A stretch of DNA of 64,000 nt from Anthopleura xanthogrammica. Taxonomy: Eukaryota > Cnidaria > Anthozoa > Actiniaria > Actiniidae. The notes beneath the pieces are model-generated. The model was not told the DNA's origin and ran no database searches. It was given only the letters and a program-made list of their open reading frames with translations. Made by a program: the position numbers and the translations under genes. The stretch covers positions 7,160,468 to 7,224,467 of the forward strand of contig OZ025221.1 in assembly GCA_964019055.1 (NCBI GenBank), given 5' to 3'. Shown in pieces: positions 1 to 54,929 of this stretch (position 1 is the stretch's first letter; each line of letters begins with the position of its first letter).

Positions 1-3000
1 CCAAGTAAAGATGGACACTGCCATTGATAAAGCAAGTGGCTTGTTTAGCATTGGCATCTGAAAACAGTTGCAAAAGAGTAAGCATTTCATTTAGAACCCC
101 CTGCCTTACAGCTTCATCTTGCAATTGAAGACCTTGTTGAAAAAGACCAATTATCAAATGGAAAACGGACTTTCCGTTCGGTAATGTATCGTTAATATTC
201 GTTCCACAGTTTATCAAAAATCTACAGATCTCTACCAGCATCTTAACTACATTAGTTCTAAGTAACCATTCCGAATGCAAACTAAGTTCTGACAAGCAAA
301 ACAACAGAGGTGTTTGACCTTGGTGGTTTCTGATGTTCATTGTTGCTCCATACTTCCTCAGTAGGTGAAATATTTCCATGACTTCCGTTTGGGATACACC
401 AACAAATGGCAGGAGAGTTGCATAGTGAAGGAACGTGTGGCCATGCGAGTCCGCACTGTTAGGATCAGCACCTAAATTCACAAATACAGGAACTACTTGT
501 GACAGTTGCTCACTTGAGACTTGTTCCAATATGTTTTCTATGGCTTGTTTAGTTGGACCATTAGGACCATTAGCTATGGACAAGAACTCAGAAAGATATC
601 CTTTGTGCACCAAATATGAATAGTAAGATTTGACTTCACCCAAAGGCGTACATGTAAACATAATTTTACAAAACAGTACATCTATTAGTGCTTTTACTAC
701 AATTTGTTCTGTAGCACCTTTTCTAAAAAGCAGATTCAATTGCTCAGTCAGATCAAAACGATTCGTAAGGACACGAACATCATTGTTCAACATCTCTTCG
801 ATAAAAAATGATAAAATGCTTAAACTGCAATTGTCTTTCAAAGAGAGATTTCCACCATTGTCGAGAAGAAAAGAAGCAACTTTTGGTGTACGCTGCAGGG
901 CATAAAATAGGGGCGTTCTGCCATAGCGATTTCTCACATTTATTAAGGCTTTACCTTTCTCCACCAAAGCTTTGACATGAAACTCAAACTCAGATCTGAC
1001 CAAATAAAACAATGGAGTTTCACCTTTGTTGTCAGGTAGGTTGACATCAGCACCTGCATCAATCAATAAACTAATGCTGCTTACAGGAAAACAGCCTGAT
1101 ATGGAAAAAAAAGCAGTTTCGCCATTATCATTAGTCTTGCTGACATCGGCACCAGCATCAATTAACGCCCGCATAATATTTTCATTGTCCTTTTTGACTG
1201 CACTAAACAAAGCAGTTTCTCCATTATCATCAGTCTTGTTGACATCAGCACCAGCATCAATTAACGCCCGCACAATACTTGCATTGTCTTTTCTGACTGC
1301 ACTAAACAAAGCAGTTTCTGCATTATCATCAGTCTTGTTTACATCAGCACCAGCATCACTTAACGCCCGCACAATACTTTCATTGTTTTCTTCGACTGCT
1401 CTAAACAAAGCAGTTTCTTCATTATCATCAGTCTTGTTTACATCAGCACCAGCATTAATTAACGCCCGCACAATACTTTCATTGTTTTCTTCGACTGCTC
1501 TAAACAATGCTGTTTGGCCAAATATATCAGTCTTGTTGACATCAGCACCAGCATCAATTAACGCCCGCACAATACTTTCATTGTTTTCTTCGACTGCACT
1601 AAACAATGCTGTTTCTCCATTATGATCAGTCTTGTTTACATCAGCACCAGCATTAATTAACGCCCGCAAAATACCTTCATTGTCATTGCTGACTGTACTA
1701 AACAAAGCAGTTTCTCCAATATCATCAGTCTTGTTTACATCAGCACCAGCATAAATTAACGCCCGCACAATACTTTCATTGTCATTTCTGACTGTACTAA
1801 AAAAAGCAGTTTCTGCATTATCATCAGTCTTGTTTACATCAGCACCAGCATCAATTAACGCCCGCACAATACTTTCATTGTTTTCTTCGACTGCTCTAAA
1901 CAATGCTGTTTGGCCAAATATATCAGTCTTGTTGACATCAGCACCAGCATCAATTAACGCCCGTAAAATACCTTCATTGTCATTGCTGACTGTACTAAAC
2001 AAAGCAGTTTCTCCATTATCATCAGTCTTGTTTACATCAGCACCAGCATCAATTAACGCCCGCACAATACTTTCATTGTTTTCTTCGACTGCTCTAAACA
2101 AAGCAGTTTCTTCATTATCATCAGTCTTGTTTACATCAGCACCAGCATCAATTAACGCCCGCACAATACTTTCATTGTCATTTCTGAATGCACTAAACAA
2201 TGCTGTTTGGCCTTTATTATCAGTCTTGTTGACATCAGCACCAGCATCAATTAACGCCCGCACAATACTTTCATTGTTTTCTTCGACTGCACTAAACAAT
2301 GCTGTTTCGCCAAATATATCAGTCTTGTTGACATCAGCACCAGCATTAATTAACGCCCGCACAATACTTTCATTGTCATTTCTGACTGTACTAAAAAAAG
2401 CAGTTTCTCCATTATCATCAGTCTTGTTTACATCAGCACCAGCATTAATTAACGCCCGCACAATACTTTCATTGTTTTCTTCGACTGCTCTAAACAATGC
2501 TGTTTGGCCAAATATATCAGTCTTGTTTACATCAGCACCAGCATCAATTAACGCCCGCACAATACTTTCATTGTTTTCTTCGACTGCTCTAAACAATGCT
2601 GTTTGGCCAAATATATCAGTCTTGTTGACATCAGCACCAGCATCAATTAACGCCCGTAAAATACCTTCATTGTCATTGCTGACTGTACTAAACAAAGCAG
2701 TTTCTCCATTATCATCAGTCTTGTTTACATCAGCACCAGCATCAATTAACGCCCGCACAATACTTTCATTGTTTTCTTCGACTGCTCTAAACAAAGCAGT
2801 TTCTTCATTATCATCAGTCTTGTTTACATCAGCACCAGCATCAATTAACGCCCGCACAATACTTTCATTGTCATTTCTGAATGCACTAAACAATGCTGTT
2901 TGGCCTTTATTATCAGTCTTGTTGACATCAGCACCAGCATCAATTAACGCCCGCACAATACTTTCATTGTTTTCTTCGACTGCACTAAACAATGCTGTTT

Positions 3001-6000
3001 CGCCAAATATATCAGTCTTGTTGACATCAGCACCAGCATTAATTAACGCCCGCACAATACTTTCATTGTCATTTCTGACTGTACTAAAAAAAGCAGTTTC
3101 TCCATTATCATCAGTCTTGTTTACATCAGCACCAGCATTAATTAACGCCCGCACAATACTTTCATTGTTTTCTTCGACTGCTCTAAACAATGCTGTTTGG
3201 CCAAATATATTAGTCTTGTTGACATCAGCACCAGCATCAATTAACGCCCGCAAAATACCTTCATTGTCATTGCTGACTGTACTAAACAAAGCAGTTTCTC
3301 CAATATCATCAGTCTTGTTTACATCAGCACCAGCATTAATTAACGCCCGCACAATACTTTCATTGTCATTTCTGACTGTACTAAACAATGCTGTTTGGCC
3401 AAATATATCAGTCTTGTTGACATCAGCACCAGCATAAATTAACGCCCGCACAATACTTTCATTGTCATTTCTGACTGTACTAAACAAAGCAGTTTCTCCA
3501 ATATCATCAGTCTTGTTTACATCAGCACCAGCATAAATTAACGCCCGCACAATACTTTCATTGTCATTTCTGACTGTACTAAACAATGCTGTTTCGCCAT
3601 TATCATGAGTCTTGTTGACATCAGCACCAGCATTAATTAACGCCCGCAAAATACTTTCATTGTCATTGCTGACTGTACTAAACAAAGCAGTTTCTCCAAT
3701 ATCATCAGTCTTGTTTACATCAGCACCAGCATCAATTAACGCCCGCACAATACTTTCATTGTCGTTTTGAACTGCACTAAACAATGCTGTTTGGCCTTTA
3801 TTATCAGTCTTGTTGACATCAGCACCAGCATTAATTAACGCCCGCACAATACTTCCATTGTTTTCTTCGACTGCTCTAAACAATGCTGTTTGGCCAAATA
3901 TATCAGTCTTGTTGACATCAGCACCAGCATCAATTAACGCCCGCACAATACTTTCATTGTTTTCTTCGACTGCACTAAACAATGCTGTTTCTCCATTATG
4001 ATCAGTCTTGTTTACATCAGCACCAGCATTAATTAACGCCCGCAAAATACCTTCATTGTCATTGCTGACTGTACTAAACAAAGCAGTTTCTCCAATATCA
4101 TCAGTCTTGTTTACATCAGCACCAGCATAAATTAACGCCCGCACAATACTTTCATTGTCATTTCTGACTGTACTAAAAAAAGCAGTTTCTGCATTATCAT
4201 CAGTCTTGTTTACATCAGCACCAGCATCAATTAACGCCCGCACAATACTTTCATTGTTTTCTTCGACTGCTCTAAACAATGCTGTTTGGCCAAATATATC
4301 AGTCTTGTTGACATCAGCACCAGCATCAATTAACGCCCGCAAAATACCTTCATTGTCATTGCTGACTGTACTAAACAAAGCAGTTTCTCCATTATCATCA
4401 GTCTTGTTTACATCAGCACCAGCATCAATTAACGCCCGCACAATACTTTCATTGTTTTCTTCGACTGCTCTAAACAAAGCAGTTTCTTCATTATCATCAG
4501 TCTTGTTTACATCAGCACCAGCATCAATTAACGCCCGCACAATACTTTCATTGTCATTTCTGAATGCACTAAACAATGCTGTTTGGCCTTTATTATCAGT
4601 CTTGTTGACATCAGCACCAGCATCAATTAACGCCCGCACAATACTTTCATTGTTTTCTTCGACTGCACTAAACAATGCTGTTTGGCCAAATATATCAGTC
4701 TTGTTGACATCAGCACCAGCATAAATTAACGCCCGCACAATACTTTCATTGTCATTTCTGACTGTACTAAACAAAGCAGTTTCTCCAATATCATCAGTCT
4801 TGTTTACATCAGCACCAGCATAAATTAACGCCCGCACAATACTTTCATTGTCATTTCTGACTGTACTAAACAATGCTGTTTCGCCATTATCATGAGTCTT
4901 GTTGACATCAGCACCAGCATTAATTAACGCCCGCAAAATACTTTCATTGTCATTGCTGACTGTACTAAACAAAGCAGTTTCTCCAATATCATCAGTCTTG
5001 TTTACATCAGCACCAGCATCAATTAACGCCCGCACAATACTTTCATTGTCGTTTTGAACTGCACTAAACAATGCTGTTTGGCCTTTATTATCAGTCTTGT
5101 TGACATCAGCACCAGCATTAATTAACGCCCGCACAATACTTCCATTGTTTTCTTCGACTGCTCTAAACAATGCTGTTTGGCCAAATATATCAGTCTTGTT
5201 GACATCAGCACCAGCATCAATTAACGCCCGCAAAATACCTTCATTGTCATTGCTGACTGTACTAAACAAAGCAGTTTCTCCATTATCATCAGTCTTGTTT
5301 ACATCAGCACCAGCATCAATTAACGCCCGCACAATACTTTCATTGTTTTCTTTGACTGCTGTAAACAAAGCAGTTTTCGTTTTGTTAAAAAAATTAGTAG
5401 CAGTCTTGTTTACATCAGCACCAGCATCAATTAACGCCTGCACAATACTTTCATTGTTTTCTTCGACTGCTCTAAACAAAGCAGTTTCTCCGTTATCATC
5501 AGTCTCGTTTACATCAGCACCAGCATCAATTAACGCCCGCACAATACTTTCATTGTCATTTCTGAATGCACTAAACAATGCTGTTTGGCCTTTATCATCA
5601 GTCTTGTTTACATCAGCACCAGCATCAATTAACGCCCGCACAATACTTTCATTGTTTTCTTCGACTGCTCTAAACAAAGCAGTTTCTTCATTATGATCAG
5701 TCTTGTTTACATCAGCACCAGCATCAATTAACGCCCGCACAATACTTTCATTGTCATTTCTGAATGCACTAAACAATGCTGTTTGGCCAAATATATCAGT
5801 CTTGTTGACATCAGCACCAGCATTAATTAACGCATCTACTACTTCTCTATTATTGTTACCAACCGCGTAAAATAAAGGAGTTTTGTGAAATTTGTCGATT
5901 GCATTAACATCAGCTTTTCCATCAATCAATGAGTGGACTATATTTTGTTGGTCACCTAACACAGCAAAGAATAAACAACTGTTTCCATCTTTGTCTTTAA

Positions 6001-10782: not shown

Positions 10783-13326
10783 TCATTTCCTTGTGATGAT
10801 ATGATTGGCCGTTATAAATACAATACCTATTGAAGCCCATATAAGAACAAAAAATATCCACGACCTTTGTCTAAACTTCGACCTGTGCTTGTTATCATAA
10901 CTATTGGTCAACTCTCTTAGTTGCTTTCTAGCAAAATATACTAGTGTAGCTGGGATAACATACTGCACACCAGTCCCTGCGTACGAACCAGTCACTCCTA
11001 CTAAAAATTCAAGATTGTCCGTCGCGAATGCAATAGCGATTGGTGGTGAAATGGTCACAAGTGGGAAGACAATCTTATCAACCGCCCAAGGATATGGACG
11101 TCCTTCGCGATAGAACAGATTCTTAAGGTTGTCTCGTAACGTTATTGAGATTATAGGGAAATTAGTACTAAGAGTAAAAACTGGGAATAGTGCAAGAAAG
11201 TAATGAATGAATGGGTCATAGTCCTTGAAGTTGAGCGTGTATAGATCTTGGATGTCGCCAAATGCGAACATGGCCGAGAAGGATAGCAGTGAATAGAATA
11301 ATAGGATGATACTGAAGTCCAATACAAATATTCTATTGACGTGGGACTTGCTTTTCATTGGTGTAATGAAGGATGGGAGAGAGTGCTGGCACATGAACGC
11401 GTAGATGCAGACGCCGAATAGATTAGGGATGCCACCGAAGTCTTCTACACTAACATGGACTTGTTTGCCCTTTCCTTGTTTGATGCGAATAAGAGCAAGA
11501 ATGATCATCATCGAAAATGCTGCGAAAAAAAAAAAATGTAAAAAAGATCAATCATCTGATAAGATTGCATCAGACCTACTTAGCTGAGGATTATGTTTTC
11601 TTACTTCATCCCCTCCTTCCTCATCACGTGTCACGTGATGTCAAAGCAGCTCAATTTGGAGGACAAAACAAAAGAATTTCAATCTCCTGACAATTGGAAA
11701 CCTATTGTTTTGTCCTCCAAATTGAGCTGCATTCCGAAGTACTGCAAAGATCAATATTAGTTTATCTTCACAGTCATTACAGGTTAAAAAAGAAAACAAT
11801 GATCAAGGGAATGAATGACACATGGTCTGAAATGCCCTTGGAAACAGTCCCGAGCAACAGCAATGTTGGGACTGCAAAACATGGCAGTCTATTCTTTTTC
11901 TAGGACAACATGAGTTCAGTACTTGTTCATAATCAAGAAGAGGTTTTCTTTACCTAGCCACCTCATGACTGTTGTTATCATCTGAAGGTACTTGGTTTTT
12001 TGTAGGTTGAAGAATGTAAATGGACCAAGAATGAGGGTGAAGATCAACTAGAAGCAAAGAATAGTCTGTGATAAGACTAGAATACAACACAAAACTACAT
12101 TTTTATCCTTCACTTAAGAAATGACAGACAGACAGACAGACAGGCCAGCAGACAGACAGACAGACAGGCCTGCAGACAGACAGATTTATCCAATTATCTT
12201 CAAAGTGACCATAATTATACATATTTGTCTCACCAAATATATCCTATAGACATTGTCTGTAGTAATATCCCCCCAGCACTTGTCATCTGTTTTAGAGATG
12301 TTAGCTACATGCTTGGACTGATTTATCATTGAGTGCGAATCAGAGTGAGACTTCACACTAAAGCGAAACAAAGAAAAATATCATTTAGTAAACAATAAAC
12401 CTTTTTAGCTTCGTTGTTTAACAAATAAATTCATTCCTGAGTGAATGAAAGTTTGCCTGGATTAGAAAAAAACCATTATGCCCAAGATTAAGCGAATGAA
12501 GACCAAACCAAACAAAACCTGAAACAGTACGCCACCCCTGATTTCAAAACGGGGGTTTGTTTGTACCTAGTATTATATAACTTGTACATACCATGATATG
12601 TTGGTCAGAGACTTGGGCACGGCAGCAGCATAAATAGCTAGGTCACCATAGAGATAGAGACCAATGCACAAATAAAACAGCCTCAGACCATCTTGAAGAA
12701 AAACATACATGTATATCATGACATTGATAATTATTGTAATACTGTATAACATAATATGGATATGACACAGTCACAGATGTTCATTCATCTATCCATCAAC
12801 CCATCCATCCATTCATTCATCCATCCATCTATTTATCTGTCCATTAATCTATCTGACTATCTATCCATTCATTCATCCATCCATCAACCCATCCATCCAT
12901 TCATCCATCCATCCATCAACCCATCCATCCATTCATTCATCTATCCATCAACCCATTCATTCATCTATCCATTCATACGTCTATCCATCCATCCATCCAT
13001 CCGTCCATCCATCCATCCTGCCATCCATCCATTCATTCATTCATCCATCAACCCATCCATCCATCCATCCATCCATCCATTCATTCATCCATCCATCAAC
13101 CCATCCATCCATTCATTCATCTATCCATTCATACGTCTATCCATCCATCCATCCATCCGTCCATCCATCCATCCATCCTGCCATCCATCCATTCATTCAT
13201 TCATCCATCAACCCATCCATCCATCCATCCATCCATCCATTCATTCATCCATCCATCAACCCATCCATTCATTCATTCATCCATCCATCAACCCATCCAT
13301 CCATTCATCTATCCATTCATACGTCT

Positions 13327-24184: not shown

Positions 24185-26340
24185 ATGACCTCCACCAGTA
24201 CCTCTACGCTAGGGAATTCTGCAGAAAATGCAGGAGCAACACAGATCCCTTACCCAAGTCTTTACGACCTGTCATCACACAAGAAGCGAAGGATGAACAG
24301 CTCAAGTGTTATGGACACCGCTATGTCAGGTAAAAATAACTGTCTCTTTTTCATTTTCAGCTCAGGCTGGCCTTACATGGCACCGGACGAATTTTTAACC
24401 CTTCAAAAAGTTGTATATTTAGGCGTTCCGTTTCAGTACACGAAACTGCCTATCCGGACAAAAATTCAAACTCCTAGCCCTGCAAATTAAAGACTGAGAC
24501 GGTTTCATGTAAATGGTATGTGCTGGCCAAATTTTTGAGCGGTTAGAAATTCGTCCGGTACCGACCGTGTTATTCCAGCTTCGGCAAGTTTGTTTATTCA
24601 TATGCGTCCATTCTTGCACGACATCCGTCGCTGCTATTGCTACGTTGGAAAAGAATGGACCATTTTTCAGAGTGCATTGCAATTTTATCCAAATATTAGA
24701 AGAAAAAAACTTGATGAACCAATTTGTTAAACTTCATAGCGGGTTTGACGAGAGGTTGTCATCACTGTAAGTCGCTCCGATTTTTTTATACAGTCCGTCG
24801 CTACTATTCAGTGCTACGCCGTTCGAAAAGAAAAGAAGAAAATATCATTTCTCATTTTGGGGGTTGCAAACTTAATCAAAACTTTGATTTGATAAGCCAC
24901 AAATAGAAGTAAAAGAAGGTTGTTTTCGAATTGCTGAAATTTTTTCGGCAAATATTGCCGATGATGCAAATGATTAATTACTGCACTGCGCGCTGCTGTC
25001 ATGTGCAGACTTCATTAGCGGGCTTAAAATGGCATAGCAAAGACTGAGTTTTTTCGGTGAGGTCCGGAGATTGATGATCGAGCATTTGGAAGGGTGCTAT
25101 ACCCCATGGTTATCAGGCGAAGTCTATTGGCATCTATCATGCAATCGAACGAACCCTCATCCAGCCAAAGGGACCCGACTAAAACAATATTTTTGTTATC
25201 AGGTGAAGGCCATATTGTCAAGAATAAAAGAACCCGTTACAGCGCTTATCAAACAGAGACGCTGAAGAAGATCTTCGAATCAACACAGTACCCAGATTTT
25301 GAACAGCTGGCTGCAATTGCACGGGAGTTGGCGCTTGATAAAGAGGTTGTCAAGGTAACAGCTTTAACTATTATTACATCTTCCTATTAATATAACTACC
25401 GAGTGCGTAACGAATACTTTTATGTCGTATTTATAGCTCAGATGACAATGATTTCTCGGCCTTAGATTTAATAGATCTTGTTCGACTTTTTTTTGCCAAT
25501 TTCAGAGCCGAATTAAGTTCCTTTTTTTCTTTTTTTGCTTCTGTTTGGTGAAGGTGCCAATGGGGGTACCGGATTGTCAGTTAACTACTACTATTTTTTT
25601 GGCCAATTGCCAATTAACTACTGATTGAATTTTACAAGCTCTGGCCATAATATTTAACCAAGATAACAGAAATGTCAGTTTACAGTTAACTTTCATTTGT
25701 CAGTTAGGCCCGGTTTAGACGTCGAATTTCACATGTGCCGAATCTAATGCACATGAATTCAAACAATAGGTTTTGCTCATTTGTATTAGATTCGGCTTGT
25801 GAAATTCGGCGTCTAAACCGGGCCTTAACTGCTAATTTTAAGGCTATTTTTCCTGCAGTTAACTACTAGATTTTAGGCCGATTGTCAGTTAATGATAATT
25901 CCGTGTAAGGCCAGCCTTAGATAGCGTGAAAAAGTTACGCTCAAAGTAGAAGAGTCCGGCTATTAACTGGTTTAACCTTTTTTCAGATATGGTTTAAGAA
26001 TCGAAGAGCTCGTCAAAAGACAAAGAACCAAGAAGAAGCTTATAGGCTGAGTTTCCTTCAAAGAGGAAGTAGTAGCTTGCCTCACTTCTGCTGCCCTGAG
26101 CCAGTCTATTGCTTCCCAATGTATCCTGTTTTTCCGTCACCATGCCAACCGATGATGAATTACCATGGTAACACCGCCTATGGCTTGTACAACAAGCCGA
26201 CAAGCATCTTTGAAGGCAGGTTCGATGACAACCTGTACCAAAACAGGCCTAGTGTTGTTGTTCCATCCCAAGAACGTCGACCAAATGAATCGGTTGCCTG
26301 CCGAAGGGAACTTAATCCATATGCTCATCACACTAAATAG
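24185..26340 (+). CDS. K50 paired-like homeodomain transcription factor
   Basis: Three exons: 24185-24329, 25203-25354 and 25987-26340 (651 nt, 216 aa). A TGA directly upstream in frame fixes the ATG at 24185. The first exon encodes a Ser/Thr-rich leader of about 48 residues. The homeodomain is residues 54-113, with the invariant positions L16, F20, L40, W48, F49, N51 and R53 all in register. The intron falls between homeodomain positions 46 and 47, the classical site of PRD-like genes. Position 50 is lysine (IWFKNRRARQ), the Otx/Gsc/Pitx-type specificity that usually reads TAATCC. The rest, including a basic RARQKTK end and a Pro/Tyr-rich tail ending NPYAHHTK, does not match a named family I recall. 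No paired domain, octapeptide or OAR motif is seen. It is a nuclear DNA-binding regulator; its orthology is unresolved. Confidence 0.92.
25701..25831. repeat. foldback MITE, ggcccggtttagacg family
   Basis: cagttaggcccggtttagac and its complement gtctaaaccgggccttaact bracket a 131-bp palindromic element in homeobox intron 2. A diverged relative of one arm may lie near 14340. Confidence 0.9.
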
Positions 26341-28899: not shown

Positions 28900-29195
28900 A
28901 TTTAACAATTAGTCCTCGAGTCCGAATGGTCTACGAGTCAATAGCCCATGAGGCCGAAGGCCGAATGGGCTATTGACTCGTAGGCCATGAGGGCGAGAGG
29001 TCTAATTGTTTTAGTAAAAACCTACTAATCGGTCCAATAAAAGGATGCAAAAAGTTTTGGATTTTGCTTTAAATATATTTTTTTTGGTTTTCAAAACCGG
29101 CGCTTTTCGCTACTAGAGGTCTATCACTAATAGACCCCTAGTAGCTCAGCCAATCACAGGGCTCGATTGGTGATAGACCATTAGTAGGTTTTTTC
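28900..29195. repeat. partial copy of the 480-bp palindromic element
   Basis: Nearly identical to the left arm and centre of the element at 55335-55816 (starts tttaacaattagtcctcgag). The right arm is truncated after tagtaggtttttt. Confidence 0.9.
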
Positions 29196-29420: not shown

Positions 29421-29476
29421 GAATTCTTTTATTTTGTCCTTCAAATTGAGCTGCTTTGACATCAAAGGCGGGGTCT
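29421..29476. repeat. partial copy of the ggacaaaac foldback family
   Basis: Only one arm is present (tttgtccttcaaattgagct and gctttgacatcaaagg). It contains a minus-strand AATAAA about 75 nt downstream of the EctC-like stop, so it could supply that gene's poly(A) signal. Confidence 0.65.
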
Positions 29477-29505: not shown

Positions 29506-31400
29506 TTAATACGATGATATCTGAGAGCTGTCATCGAAATTATGAACCTCATCACCTCTCAAAGCTGGAAAAAATACACAAATTATCTGACTATTTTCCT
29601 CTTTAATGAGCAATGTATGGGCATCGTGCTTATCCAAGAGGTACATTATACCATCTTTCTTCACTGGATCTTTTTCGTCAAACTCCAAGCTTTCTGTGTT
29701 GTCGTTCCATGAGTAAATTCCACTACCTCTGATAAAGAAATTTGCTTCAATGTGGTTCCTATAGTGCATGGGACATAGAATATTGGCAGTGGGCATCGTG
29801 TTGGTGATGGTAATATTGAAACCGTCAGCTTGCTTCAAGAACCTTCTACTGGTCCCACGTTTGAAGTCAACCTCCCTATCCGTTCCCAAGATGCTGTTCA
29901 AGCTTAGAAAGTAGGGAATGGGCTGTATATCGGGTAACCCGGGCACAGATACGACCACCATGCGGGTACAAGCCTCCAGGACTTGGAAGCGTGCCTTTGT
30001 AGTTGAGGAAAGAGCAAGCAACGTATCCCCGGTCATTGTAAATGTCGTCTTTTCATCGTCATCCAAGGTAATGAAACATTTACCTAGAAAATTATAATAT
30101 GATCTTAGATTCAGCATTTCCTACCTAATACGAAGAAAGATATATAGTACTAATAAAAGAAATGTGTGGGTCACAAAGTTTGGCCGGTAAAGTCCAAATC
30201 AATTCCAAGAAATCGAGCTTCAACTGAAGTTTGGAAAAATAGTGCTTCTAGACCGTAGTCAGTACTCTTCATTTGAGGGAATAGAAATTTGATTGCAGAA
30301 AAACAAATATACTAACAAAGCATTCTGGTAGTTGCCTTGGGTGTCGGTGGTCCTCTCGCTCTGTACGTGATGTGCGGACCTGGGTCAATTATTTATTCTC
30401 GCTTTACTGACTTGATTCACATATCGCATGTCAGTAAGAATACCCTGTACAAGATCTACGAAACAGGTTTACAGCTGGTTTAGCACGCAATTACTAAAAA
30501 CATGATAGAGTGAGGTCAATAAACCCGTGAAATATATATTAGACTTATACACTTTAGTAGACCCTAATTCTATTGTTTTCTTTTGTGTCTATTTGACTAT
30601 TACACTTTAACAAGCAATTTTTATTTCACAGTTTAATACCTTCACTCTATGTTATGTAATATATACAATATTTATTCAAATCAGGCCTAGTTGTAGCAAT
30701 GGAAGCACGAGGCATTAAATTTAGAAAATATGTAAATGAAGGCGGCTATTTTTCGAATGGTCTATATGGCCGCTCCTTTATTATCATAATTTTACCGCTA
30801 CATTAACATTATAGATTAGAATGACATCAACAAAGTTAGAAAGTTTGAGACAAAAATATTTAATTCTTGAGAAGTTATGAGAATTTTAAAATGTGAAAAA
30901 CACCACAACGATGCTAGCAAGGAAACAGATCACTGAACACATACAAATCTCTGTAATTTTGATCCCAAATAGCTTCACTTGAATTCTATTCATACCAATG
31001 AAACTTTCCAAAAATACATATTTCTGCTTGCTCTTTCTGATGGTGGTGCTTATTTTTAAAATATTTTTTCAAAATGGCGAAATTTTTGAGCGTAAAAAAT
31101 CGAGTCTGCAAAGCAAAAATGGCAGAGAGAATAAAGTACACTATAGGCGTACTTCAGTTTAGAAAACCAATGATTCTTTAATACGCTAGTTGCTCAGATA
31201 TATACTGTACCTTCAATGCAGTAATAGATATGGTTATGTCCATCGTGCAGAGGTGCTAGTTGACCTTGATCGTCGTGTGATAGGTTAACATGGCTAACTG
31301 TAAATCCCACCTTGTCTTCGAGAGATGTCAGTATTTTACCTCTCAACTGACTTTGACCAAGTTTTTCTTCTGGTGTTTGAGAAACGATGCGAGTTTTCAT
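29506..31400 (-). CDS. ectoine-synthase-like (EctC) tandem-cupin protein
   Basis: Two exons, 31400-31211 and 30083-29506, joined in phase 1 (768 nt, 255 aa). An in-frame TAG lies upstream of the ATG. The length is twice a bacterial EctC (about 130 aa), and the protein splits into two EctC-like cupin halves. In the C-terminal half (about 131-255), MHYRNHIEANFFIRGSG, MYLLDKHDAH and VFFPALRGDEVHN follow EctC closely. E176, Y211 and H219 fall where EctC has its metal-binding Glu, Tyr and His. In the N-terminal half (1-130), HNHIYYCIEG and CFITLDDDE align, but those three positions become His57, Leu86 and about Ala94. EctC cyclises N-gamma-acetyl-diaminobutyrate to the osmolyte ectoine. No ectA or ectB partner is in the window. 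The GT-AG intron and animal neighbours argue against contamination. The fold and family are well supported; activity and substrate are inference. Confidence 0.88.
30505..30650. repeat. ccgtgaaa-family MITE, copy 2
   Basis: tagagtgaggtcaataaacc and cgtgaaat with the opposite end atttcacagtttaatacctt and cactcta. It lies in the EctC-like gene's intron. Confidence 0.75.
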
Positions 31401-31486: not shown

Positions 31487-31945
31487 GGGACCTTAAGCAC
31501 CAGGACGGGAGGACGAGGACGGCGTCAAGTCCGAGAAAGGACTAGGTCGAGAACGCCGTCCGTCCTCTCGTCATGTAACATTAGAGACCTTAAGATTCAC
31601 GACAGGAGCGGACAGCGACGGTAGACGATGATGCCAGCACGTTTTCAAGACGGTTTTTCGAGTGCGCGCCGTCGTCCTTGCCGTTGTCGTCCTCTCCAGA
31701 ACGTCACTTGGTGCTTTTTCACGTTCTAGCGAGGACTGCAGCAGCAAGGACGACGGCGCGCGCACCAAAAACCGTCTTGAAAACGAGCTGGCGTCACGTT
31801 AGTATTTTGATTTGGTGAAGTTTAGCTTGTTTTCCCGTCCTGGTGCTTAAGTGTTACGTTGCGTGAAAACCTACGACGATCTCGACCTAGTTCTTTCTCG
31901 GACTTTACGTCGCCGTCCTCGTCCTCCCGTCCTGGTGCTATAATG
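31487..31945. repeat. GC-rich nested palindromic element, about 460 bp
   Basis: The outer arms (aagcaccaggacgggaggac and gtcctcccgtcctggtgcta) and inner arms (gttttcaagacggtttttcg and its near complement at 31768-31788) make two nested hairpins. It begins about 90 bp upstream of the EctC-like start codon. Confidence 0.85.
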
Positions 31946-52698: not shown

Positions 52699-54929
52699 TC
52701 AAGTTCTAGCAGATTCAAACATCTCTTTTAACAGAGTAGACATGGGGACCTCTCCTTCCAGTTTAGATTGTACCACAAGAAAGAATCCATATCCCTTGGT
52801 GCACACGTCTCTTAGTGCTGGAAGTCGCAGTAGGATTTTCGCAAATCTTTCTGGTTGATGAGGGTAGACTGTTGAGATGTGATATTGCAGACCTGATAAG
52901 AATGATGTTCGCAATTTTTCCACCTTTGATTTACACTTTAAGCCTGGGTTTTCTGGGGAAAACAAAACTAGGCATTTTAATTTTATGTATAAAATCTCTC
53001 GCTTCTGTGTAGTTCACTGCTTGGGTTATAATAATCAACTTTATTTAGGGTTACAGGTTTCATTCTTGACTGAACTGTGTATGTGAGTTGAGTTTGTTTT
53101 ATGCAAACATTGTTCTCTCCCTTGCCACAAGGGTTTTTTTCCAGGTTCTCTAGTTTTCATTTCTCCATGGAGATCAACATGTAAGTTGAGTCTTGTGTTG
53201 CAAATAGTGAAAATTGTGGTAGTGTGTGTGGAAAGACCCTCATGAAAGAGAGTGATGATTGTAAAATACAATGTTTAATCATTTTTGGCAAGTGTTTTTG
53301 CTATAAATTTAAACTAACCTGGATCTGCAAGTAGTATAGACTTTAATAACGCAAACTCTACTTCATCCATGCCAACAGCTCTTAACCTCTCCACAACATC
53401 CAGTATCCTATCAACTATATCAGTGTTCAATACTTCATAACACACTTCTCGCACCAGCAATGTAGTGGAATTAATATACACTTGGTTATGGTATGGTATT
53501 GACCGAAATATTACCCTGAAGACGATAAGTTCCATCCCTGCGGCAGTTAACAGCACAATCTGATCATGCTGAGGAAGATCACTGAACCCAGGAACCAGCT
53601 TTGCCCACTCCACAATGAAGTGCAGTTCTCTGGTGATTGCATTAGAAGAACGTACCAACACTGCTTCTTTCCCTTCTTTCATACTCTCTACAAGTTTCTC
53701 TATTGGTTCTCCTGGAGGAACAACACAAGGATTGCTGGCCATTAGTTGTGCTATAAGATCAGCGTTTTCATCTGTGGAATTTTCAGCTGTGTCTAGCTTT
53801 TCCTCTTGCAGGCTTGTAGTATTGCTATCCTTTGTAGGAATCTCTTTTTTGAGTGGATAGAAAGAACGACCTCCTCTTTGCTTTTCTTTCCTGATTCCTA
53901 AAAAATTCCAATTCAATATAAATTTAGGAAATTAAAATTTGCAGCTCATTAAAAAATAGTTGAACTTCTGATATATTAGTTTAGAAGAAATAGCTATAGC
54001 CTTTATATATAATTATGATCAAGATAAAAGAAGAAATTCCAGAATTCCATGCAATTTCTGAAATGTTATATCTTAAGGTGGCTCGATATAGTTTTCTTAG
54101 GCTAGAGGTACCTCTTTTGAAAACCCAATTTTACAGCTTATTCCAGTGCGATGCACTTAATCATGGCCTTAATCGTGGTGATTAAGAGGTACCTCAAGCC
54201 TAAAAACCTATATCGAGCCACCTTAAAAGATGGCACATGTGCCTTGCTATTGTTCTCATATTTGAAGGTCAAATGCTATTAGCCAATCAGAATCCTCTAA
54301 GACAATACAATTGTACACTAATATCATGTCATTATTATTGTACTGTTATGTTATGGGATTAGGCAATCGTGCGTTTTAAACTCGTGTTTGATCAAACCAT
54401 GCTTGTTCTCGGTGTTTTGTTACAATATTCTAGCAATCTTTTGCTTCGTAGATTATTCTTTTTTCAATATATGTCACTTTAATCATCGTTTATAGATGAA
54501 AGCTACTAAAAACATCGACTTTGACCCCTACCTGGAGAAAATGGATTTTGAAAGTGTCGTGTTTAAACTTGAAAAATTTCTTCTTTTTAAAAAAATATCA
54601 TGTGAAAAATCATTTCTGGAGAACCCTAATCGCCACACAGGCTTAGATAGAAATGCATCATAGGAGAATAACGTGAAATTAAGTTAAAGCTTACCTTCTT
54701 GGACCATTCCGACGTCAAAACACTTCTTGAGTCGACAAGCTTGACACTTCGCTCGACTAGCCTTATCGATCTCACAGTTGCCGGCCTTGAAAATACATGT
54801 ATATTTGTCTATATAACCTCGTTGAATGGTTCTTTTGAAAAAACTTTTGCATCCTTCACATGTGTCTGCACCATAATGATAACCCGAACTAGAATCTCCA
54901 CACACGGCGCATTTCTCAAGGGGGTTCAT
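52699..54929 (-). CDS. nuclear receptor with NR3-like features
   Basis: Three coding exons: 54929-54695, 53897-53319 and 52952-52699 (1,068 nt, 355 aa from the first in-frame Met). A TAA lies upstream in the same frame, but an upstream exon with an A/B domain is possible. The DNA-binding domain (residues 7-75) has all eight zinc cysteines (C7, C10, C24, C27, C45, C52, C62, C65). Its P-box is CEGCKS. The D-box has six residues between cysteines instead of the usual five. [14 protein letters not shown] resembles oestrogen receptors. The ligand-binding domain signature [20 protein letters not shown] (from about residue 172) is intact. The last exon has [13 protein letters not shown], as in RXR, and [18 protein letters not shown] with an AF-2 helix, as in ERR/ER. 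It is a nuclear ligand-regulated or orphan transcription factor. The mixed NR2/NR3 traits suggest the cnidarian NR3-related group, unproven. Confidence 0.93.
53110..53215 (+). mobile_element. SINE tail fragment
   Basis: tttttttccaggttctctag and tctccatggagatcaacatg match the 3' half of the SINEs at 33050 and 44437. In a receptor intron. Confidence 0.5.
54073..54226. repeat. foldback MITE, ttaaggtggctcg family
   Basis: cttaaggtggctcgatatag and ctatatcgagccaccttaa are exact inverted ends; internal aggtacctc is also mirrored. In a receptor intron. Confidence 0.9.

Follow-up and report, generated by a model that had tools for sequence, protein, structure and literature searches.

Does an animal genome hold a working relative of the bacterial ectoine synthase EctC, and would ectoine be its product? 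The question is raised by a gene on the minus strand of a 64,000-nucleotide stretch of DNA (hereafter, the window) from the sea anemone Anthopleura xanthogrammica (contig OZ025221.1, positions 7,160,468 to 7,224,467). Two exons encode a protein of 255 amino acids composed of two cupins, an N-terminal and a C-terminal half. An earlier note, made from the letters of the window alone, had described the product as a double ectoine-synthase-like cupin with one intact and one degenerate active site. Judged by sequence comparison, this is a real two-exon animal gene for a two-barrel protein, and its C half is an EctC-like enzyme domain of bacterial type in which all three iron-ligand positions are kept. 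The protein is probably a working enzyme.

The EctC-like C-terminal cupin

The C half (residues 128-255) scored 79.9 bits with the Pfam family PF06339 (cut-off 27), and no other Pfam model, those of generic cupins included, came near this match; the whole protein reached 98.6 bits. Residues E176, Y211 and H219 align to the EctC iron ligands Glu-57, Tyr-84 and His-92. This metal triad is intact, as are six other EctC positions, both in the window protein and in the predicted protein LOC116291205 of the anemone Actinia tenebrosa, and most EctC substrate residues are retained. LOC116291205 is also 255 amino acids long and shows the same two-cupin arrangement, differing in a Tyr that precedes SRRFL where the window protein has Thr. 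Its UniRef entry carries the name 'L-ectoine synthase', a name only, with the function unstated, and such a database label should not count as evidence of ectoine synthesis.

The protein searches gave few matches, four for the whole query and two for the C half alone, probably owing to the short-word filter. A profile search scored the 8000 candidates with the most words in common and listed 120 of 6697, and further animal members may be hidden among the remainder. EctC-like sequences in animals have already been published (the papers cited here were available in part, and statements about them refer to the available parts). Sequences related to ectA and ectC are described from protists, Branchiostoma and Saccoglossus, some of them as ectA-ectC fusions (Harding et al., cited in PMC5924519 and PMC5796728), and PF06339 is listed for the corals Seriatopora and Favites (PMC11639872). 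In the literature searched, mostly by title and abstract start, the latter was the only paper that we recognised as naming an ectoine-synthase domain for a cnidarian host; PMC5447177 mentions ectoine once, about Halocafeteria. The two-cupin form with a degenerate half appears to be new as far as searched: no two-cupin animal EctC form was found in the literature searched, mostly as judged from titles and abstract starts, and the available descriptions of the Branchiostoma, Saccoglossus, Seriatopora and Favites genes mention neither a second cupin nor a degenerate half. The claim that no animal form had been described thus stands for the two-cupin form within this scope and falls for EctC-like sequences in general.

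Bona fide EctC (PF06339; S. alaskensis 5bxx, P. lautus 5onm) is a single-cupin homodimer with Trp-21, encoded in ect clusters together with EctA and EctB. The best bit scores with the animal C half were obtained for orphan EctC proteins, for example P0011 (identical to the L023 protein of Mycetohabitans), L005 of Kitasatospora and P0024. The orphans share with the animal C half a Thr at the N38 position (19 of 22 orphans), the C-terminal S-x-Y, the GxSRR motif and the metal triad; they differ in being single cupins of approximately 127 amino acids, in having the Trp shifted by two positions (22 of 22) and in lacking a 7-residue insert before the second motif. Three hidden Markov models (HMMs), of orphan, canonical and tandem EctC rows of our own choice, scored the C half at 103.4, 91.0 and 59.8 bits, respectively. 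In a 60-row tree, the three animal C halves fell within the orphan clade (98/93) on a long stem branch of 1.57 changes per site, and the bacterial tandem repeats formed a separate clade (100/100); support for the orphan clade was 83/75 once the N halves joined the tree. In one tree, P0011 lay near the animal rows (90/80). The chain end S-x-Y, an independent mark that agrees with the tree, is found in 22 of 22 orphans and 3 of 3 animals, and in none of the 11 canonical rows. The approximately unbiased (AU) test rejected neither the grouping of the animal C half with tandem EctC (p 0.379) nor that with canonical EctC (p 0.179). Because this test is less sure than the tree and the S-x-Y ending, it is likely rather than proven that orphan EctC proteins are the nearest relatives of the animal C half. 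An origin from bacterial tandem EctC is not favoured, given the low HMM score and the separate clade, the AU result notwithstanding.

As a separate observation, an EctC-like cupin is combined in one chain with PF02195, which we take to be a ParB-type domain, in the protein P0004.

The N-terminal cupin and the origin of the double barrel

At the EctC ligand positions the N half carries H57, L86 and A94, so that two of the three ligands are missing and a His stands at the third; H52, H55 and H57 are retained in both anemones. These residues, and E176, Y211 and H219 in the C half, are as the earlier note had read them. Its description of both halves as EctC-like held for the C half, whereas the N half is recognisable as a cupin only. 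PF06339 was the best Pfam family of the N half (residues 1-127; E 9e-4), but its 19.9 bits lie below the cut-off, with Cupin_2 at 15.4 bits. The orphan EctC HMM gave 16.6 bits, a quercetinase fragment 15.4 and the best of 50 shuffles 7.2, and comparison with its own C half by phmmer yielded 1.6 bits; against 1y3t, the phmmer E value was 0.0033. In hhalign, the N half scored 88.6 with two quercetinase pieces, 44.5 with orphan, 33 with canonical and 13.4 with tandem EctC, and 0.39 with its own C half, a comparison biased toward quercetinase, since the pieces had been chosen as the top matches of the N half in the PDB. The pieces themselves matched orphan EctC at 82. A three-sequence profile of the N half found nothing in the PDB better than E 0.35, mostly WD-repeat proteins that are best regarded as noise.

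Sequence and model together mark the N half as a degenerated cupin that may or may not descend from EctC. The tandem duplication proposed in the earlier note did not find support, as the N half resembles other cupins at least as much as it resembles EctC or the C half of the same protein. Descent of the N half from a duplicated EctC that degenerated, as opposed to the joining of some other cupin, is possible but doubtful; the matter concerns origin only and is compatible with any reading of the function. The rank of PF06339 among the Pfam families and the collinearity of the N half with EctC over approximately 100 residues argue for duplication, as does the existence of tandem EctC-like proteins in bacteria; the subthreshold score, the hhalign preference for the (preselected) quercetinase pieces over orphan and canonical EctC and the own C half, and the tree, in which the N half sits on a branch of approximately 6 changes per site and cannot be placed, argue against it. 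The expression 'active site lost' applies to the N half only if it once was EctC.

The tandem proteins, P0006-P0010, P0012 and P0013, are 274-414 amino acids long, apparently bacterial as judged from their sequences and the lengths of their contigs, and form a clade of their own. They resemble the animal protein in uniting several cupins in one chain, in their case two EctC-like ones (three in P0006), but E, Y and H are present in 15 of 15 of their repeats, in contrast to the animal N half, which lacks intact ligands.

Between the two anemones, the N half is 86% and the C half 85% identical. With conservation equal to that of the C half, the N half is evidently maintained. The AlphaFold2 model of protein P0001 consists of two cupin barrels in one chain, with a mean predicted local distance difference test (pLDDT) score of 79; block means were 80-92 for residues 51-120 and a low 32-71 for residues 1-50. 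Only three animal rows span the N half in the alignment used for the model; MAFFT alignments that included the tandem proteins were out of register (410 columns) and did not enter the model. Whole-chain structure matches of the model included bicupins such as (S)-ureidoglycine aminohydrolase (4e2q), DR1152 (1sfn), BacB and quercetin dioxygenase; at 11-13% identity, the likeness is one of fold only.

Gene structure and genomic setting

LOC116291205 aligns to the window protein over 100% of the query length at 85% identity, and this full-length relative makes the splice model secure at the protein level. Two further relatives were found as open frames, P0002 (97% identity over 77% of the query) and P0003 (53% over 75%). 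The starts of both frames resemble intron read-through, and both join exon 2 at one codon (G|KCF and G|SCT); the intron thus probably has a common position in all of them, as seen at the protein level. This fits the old gain of the gene that had been proposed from the window alone. Coordinates, strand and splicing likewise agree with what was then proposed (Table 1).

Table 1. Positions of the gene, its parts and other features of the window (numbered from the first letter of the window)
Feature	Position	Strand	Basis or detail
Exon 1, ATG to base 1 of codon 64, start of N-terminal cupin	31211..31400	-	collinear with P0001; recovered by self-search
Phase-1 GT-AG intron, 1127 bases, within the N-terminal cupin, not at the domain boundary	30084..31210	-	5' GAAG|GTACAG, 3' TTTTCTAG|GT
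Exon 2, remainder of N-terminal cupin and entire C-terminal cupin; TAA stop at 29508-29506	29506..30083	-	recovered by self-search
Degenerate N-terminal cupin, exon-2 portion (with exon 1, residues 1-120)	29914..30083	-	sequence and profile comparison; bases by arithmetic from exon ends
EctC-like C-terminal cupin, residues 121-255	29509..29913	-	E176 = 29748-29746, Y211 = 29643-29641, H219 = 29619-29617
AATAAA, possible polyadenylation signal, 73 bases 3' of the stop	29428..29433	-	motif match only
Amino-acid transporter	10783..11547		animal-type neighbour
Nuclear hormone receptor ligand-binding domain (PF00104)	53314..53931	-	animal-type neighbour
Strong inverted repeats	28904..29187; 31492..31939		arms of 26-76 bases
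99-base tandem repeat, approximately 48 copies	1106..5833	-	coding repeats ALIDAGADVNKTD
Open frame containing FQIWFKNRRARQK	25930..26340	+	no Pfam match at 0.001

When the genome (an assembly of 290 Mb in 125 contigs) was searched with the protein itself, only the two exons matched, so that the gene has one copy within the reach of this search. The contig that carries it exceeds 7.2 Mb, and the window also contains two neighbours of animal type, an amino-acid transporter and the domain of a nuclear hormone receptor. A bacterial contaminant, or a mis-assembled or mis-spliced frame, might be suspected from the bacterial type of the domain; we give this almost no credence and rejected contamination in view of the intron, the full-length protein in a second anemone and the animal genes in the window. 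The outcomes that the earlier note had named as refuting it were likewise not encountered: the C half prefers EctC to generic cupins, a relative has the gene, and its neighbours are animal genes.

Other features of the window were noted in passing. Strong inverted repeats flank the gene on both sides; one pair is 100% complementary, and the repeats resemble small transposable elements. Farther away, the window contains a long array of coding repeats, presumably ankyrin-like, and an open frame with a stretch that we take to be similar to helix 3 of a homeodomain, for which Pfam gave no match.

Ectoine or another substrate

Nothing in the present sequence data demonstrates that the animal makes ectoine with this protein. 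In an exon-by-exon search of the anemone genome, EctA had no match at E<=0.001; the control matched at 7 of 14, with none over the cut-off, and genes split by introns could escape such a search. No match to the diaminobutyrate (DABA) transaminase model TIGR00709 exceeded its cut-off in the genome, three stretches reaching 40-60 bits versus 401.6. EctD had no genome match either, but this result is uninformative because its control was found nowhere. A class III aminotransferase, L083, was considered as a pathway member and rejected: it was closest to acetylornithine transaminases and fell well short of the cut-offs for all 25 families listed. L083 (934-2934, contig C12) is a single frame of 666 amino acids, in which the aminotransferase domain (residues 35-407) is accompanied by approximately 250 residues with no Pfam match.

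The gene neighbourhoods of the bacterial orphans were surveyed for the best 80 of 203 relatives from genome contigs (L002-L081), with neighbours identified by tblastn (E<=1e-8) up to 5 kb on each side of each locus. A homolog of nonribosomal peptide synthetase (NRPS) adenylation domains lay near 62 of the 80 loci, an acyl-CoA-dehydrogenase-type homolog near 54 and a TrpA-like homolog near 35. EctA was present at seven loci and EctB at the same seven, none of which had an adenylation homolog. The dehydrogenase query from L010 scored best with PigA of prodigiosin and with the prolyl-carrier dehydrogenase RedW, in both cases below the cut-off, and the next frame downstream of P0011 is an NRPS. 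These counts are a lead and not a tally of independent clusters, because acyl-activating enzymes and dehydrogenases of other kinds are also picked up by the adenylation and dehydrogenase queries, and because 57 of the 80 loci belong to Actinomycetota. The function of orphan EctC has been termed unclear (PMC6344544). Orphan EctC-type cupins (e.g., L010, L023 and L061) possibly have an undescribed natural-product role; as a concrete lead, their substrates may be intermediates of natural-product synthesis that are bound to a carrier or derived from amino acids.

The best explanation, to which we would give nearly but not quite an even chance, is that the anemone protein cyclises or hydrolyses a small amide or amidine in a metal-dependent reaction, the N cupin being a structural partner. 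An orphan ectC-type gene would have been acquired from a bacterium and paired with a second cupin, by fusion or by duplication; an intron would then have been gained and the gene kept. The C cupin would bind Fe2+ or another divalent metal and catalyse a reversible condensation of an amide to a cyclic amidine, or the hydrolysis, of the EctC type; its substrate would be a small molecule resembling an amino acid, probably other than ectoine made by the animal itself. The role of the N cupin would be that of a non-catalytic partner in an intramolecular pseudo-dimer, which would replace the EctC homodimer.

Several observations weigh against this reading. The Trp present in all 22 orphans and in 11 of 11 canonical EctC rows is replaced by Phe at the shifted position in 3 of 3 animals, with Gly at the canonical Trp-21 place, and EctC with Trp-21 changed to Ala is reported to retain 9.7% activity. 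The NCBIfam ectoine synthase model NF009806 was missed (107.5 of 128 bits), and the Tyr ligand is Thr in P0003, a frame on a contig of 1072 bases that may carry errors. The AU result, the low model confidence for the first 50 residues and the few animal rows behind the modelled N half count on the same side. Two further points concern ectoine itself: the orphan L078 of Pseudomonas syringae pv. cilantro falls in the same open orphan group of the tree as the animals, and ectoine resulted when a Halomonas ectC mutant was given the solitary ectC gene from P. syringae B728a (PMC5924519). Since an orphan of the animals' own group comes from this species and a P. syringae orphan gave ectoine in Halomonas, the orphan affinity is no strong argument against ectoine.

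Some of these points would be expected of a pseudo-enzyme or binding protein, that is, an EctC-like fold that binds a metabolite or a protein, with catalysis lost or no longer selected. The Thr in P0003, the replaced Trp in all three animals, the absence of two of three ligand positions from the N half and the long animal stem branch suggest it. We consider it rather unlikely, as the window and A. tenebrosa proteins retain the metal triad together with the six further EctC positions, and as the deviating residue in P0003 stems from a short contig that possibly contains errors.

A true ectoine synthase, which would convert N-gamma-acetyl-diaminobutyrate (N-gamma-ADABA) from food or microbes, or from non-homologous enzymes, into ectoine as an osmolyte or stress protectant, appears quite improbable. 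It would account for the complete set of iron ligands and the retained substrate residues, and P. syringae offers a precedent: besides the result in Halomonas and the position of L078, P. syringae with a solitary ectC forms ectoine once host leaf material is supplied (PMC5924519; PMC6344544). Yet P. syringae cells given N-gamma-ADABA externally formed no ectoine (PMC5924519), the Trp is replaced by Phe in all three animals, the score remains below the NF009806 cut-off, and neither EctA nor a DABA transaminase above its cut-off was found in the searches described. Furthermore, most of the 80 best bacterial kin are situated near adenylation homologs and only seven beside ectAB. The suggestion of the earlier note that ectoine could be made from an imported precursor is weakened by the substituted Trp, the missing EctA match and the orphan neighbourhoods, with the Halomonas experiment speaking in its favour.

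An animal form with an intact metal site, from a genome whose exon-by-exon search did not find EctA, offers a clean case for asking what the EctC fold does if ectoine may not be its product. In its boldest form, which we hold to be unlikely, the cyclase or hydrolase reading states that anthozoans took up an orphan EctC gene of natural-product type from bacteria and joined it to a cupin turned into a catalytically empty scaffold, giving a metal-dependent cyclase or hydrolase for a cyclic amidine as yet undescribed in animals. If this is true, the anthozoan enzyme might, for instance, make a new small molecule or process microbial ectoine-like compounds.
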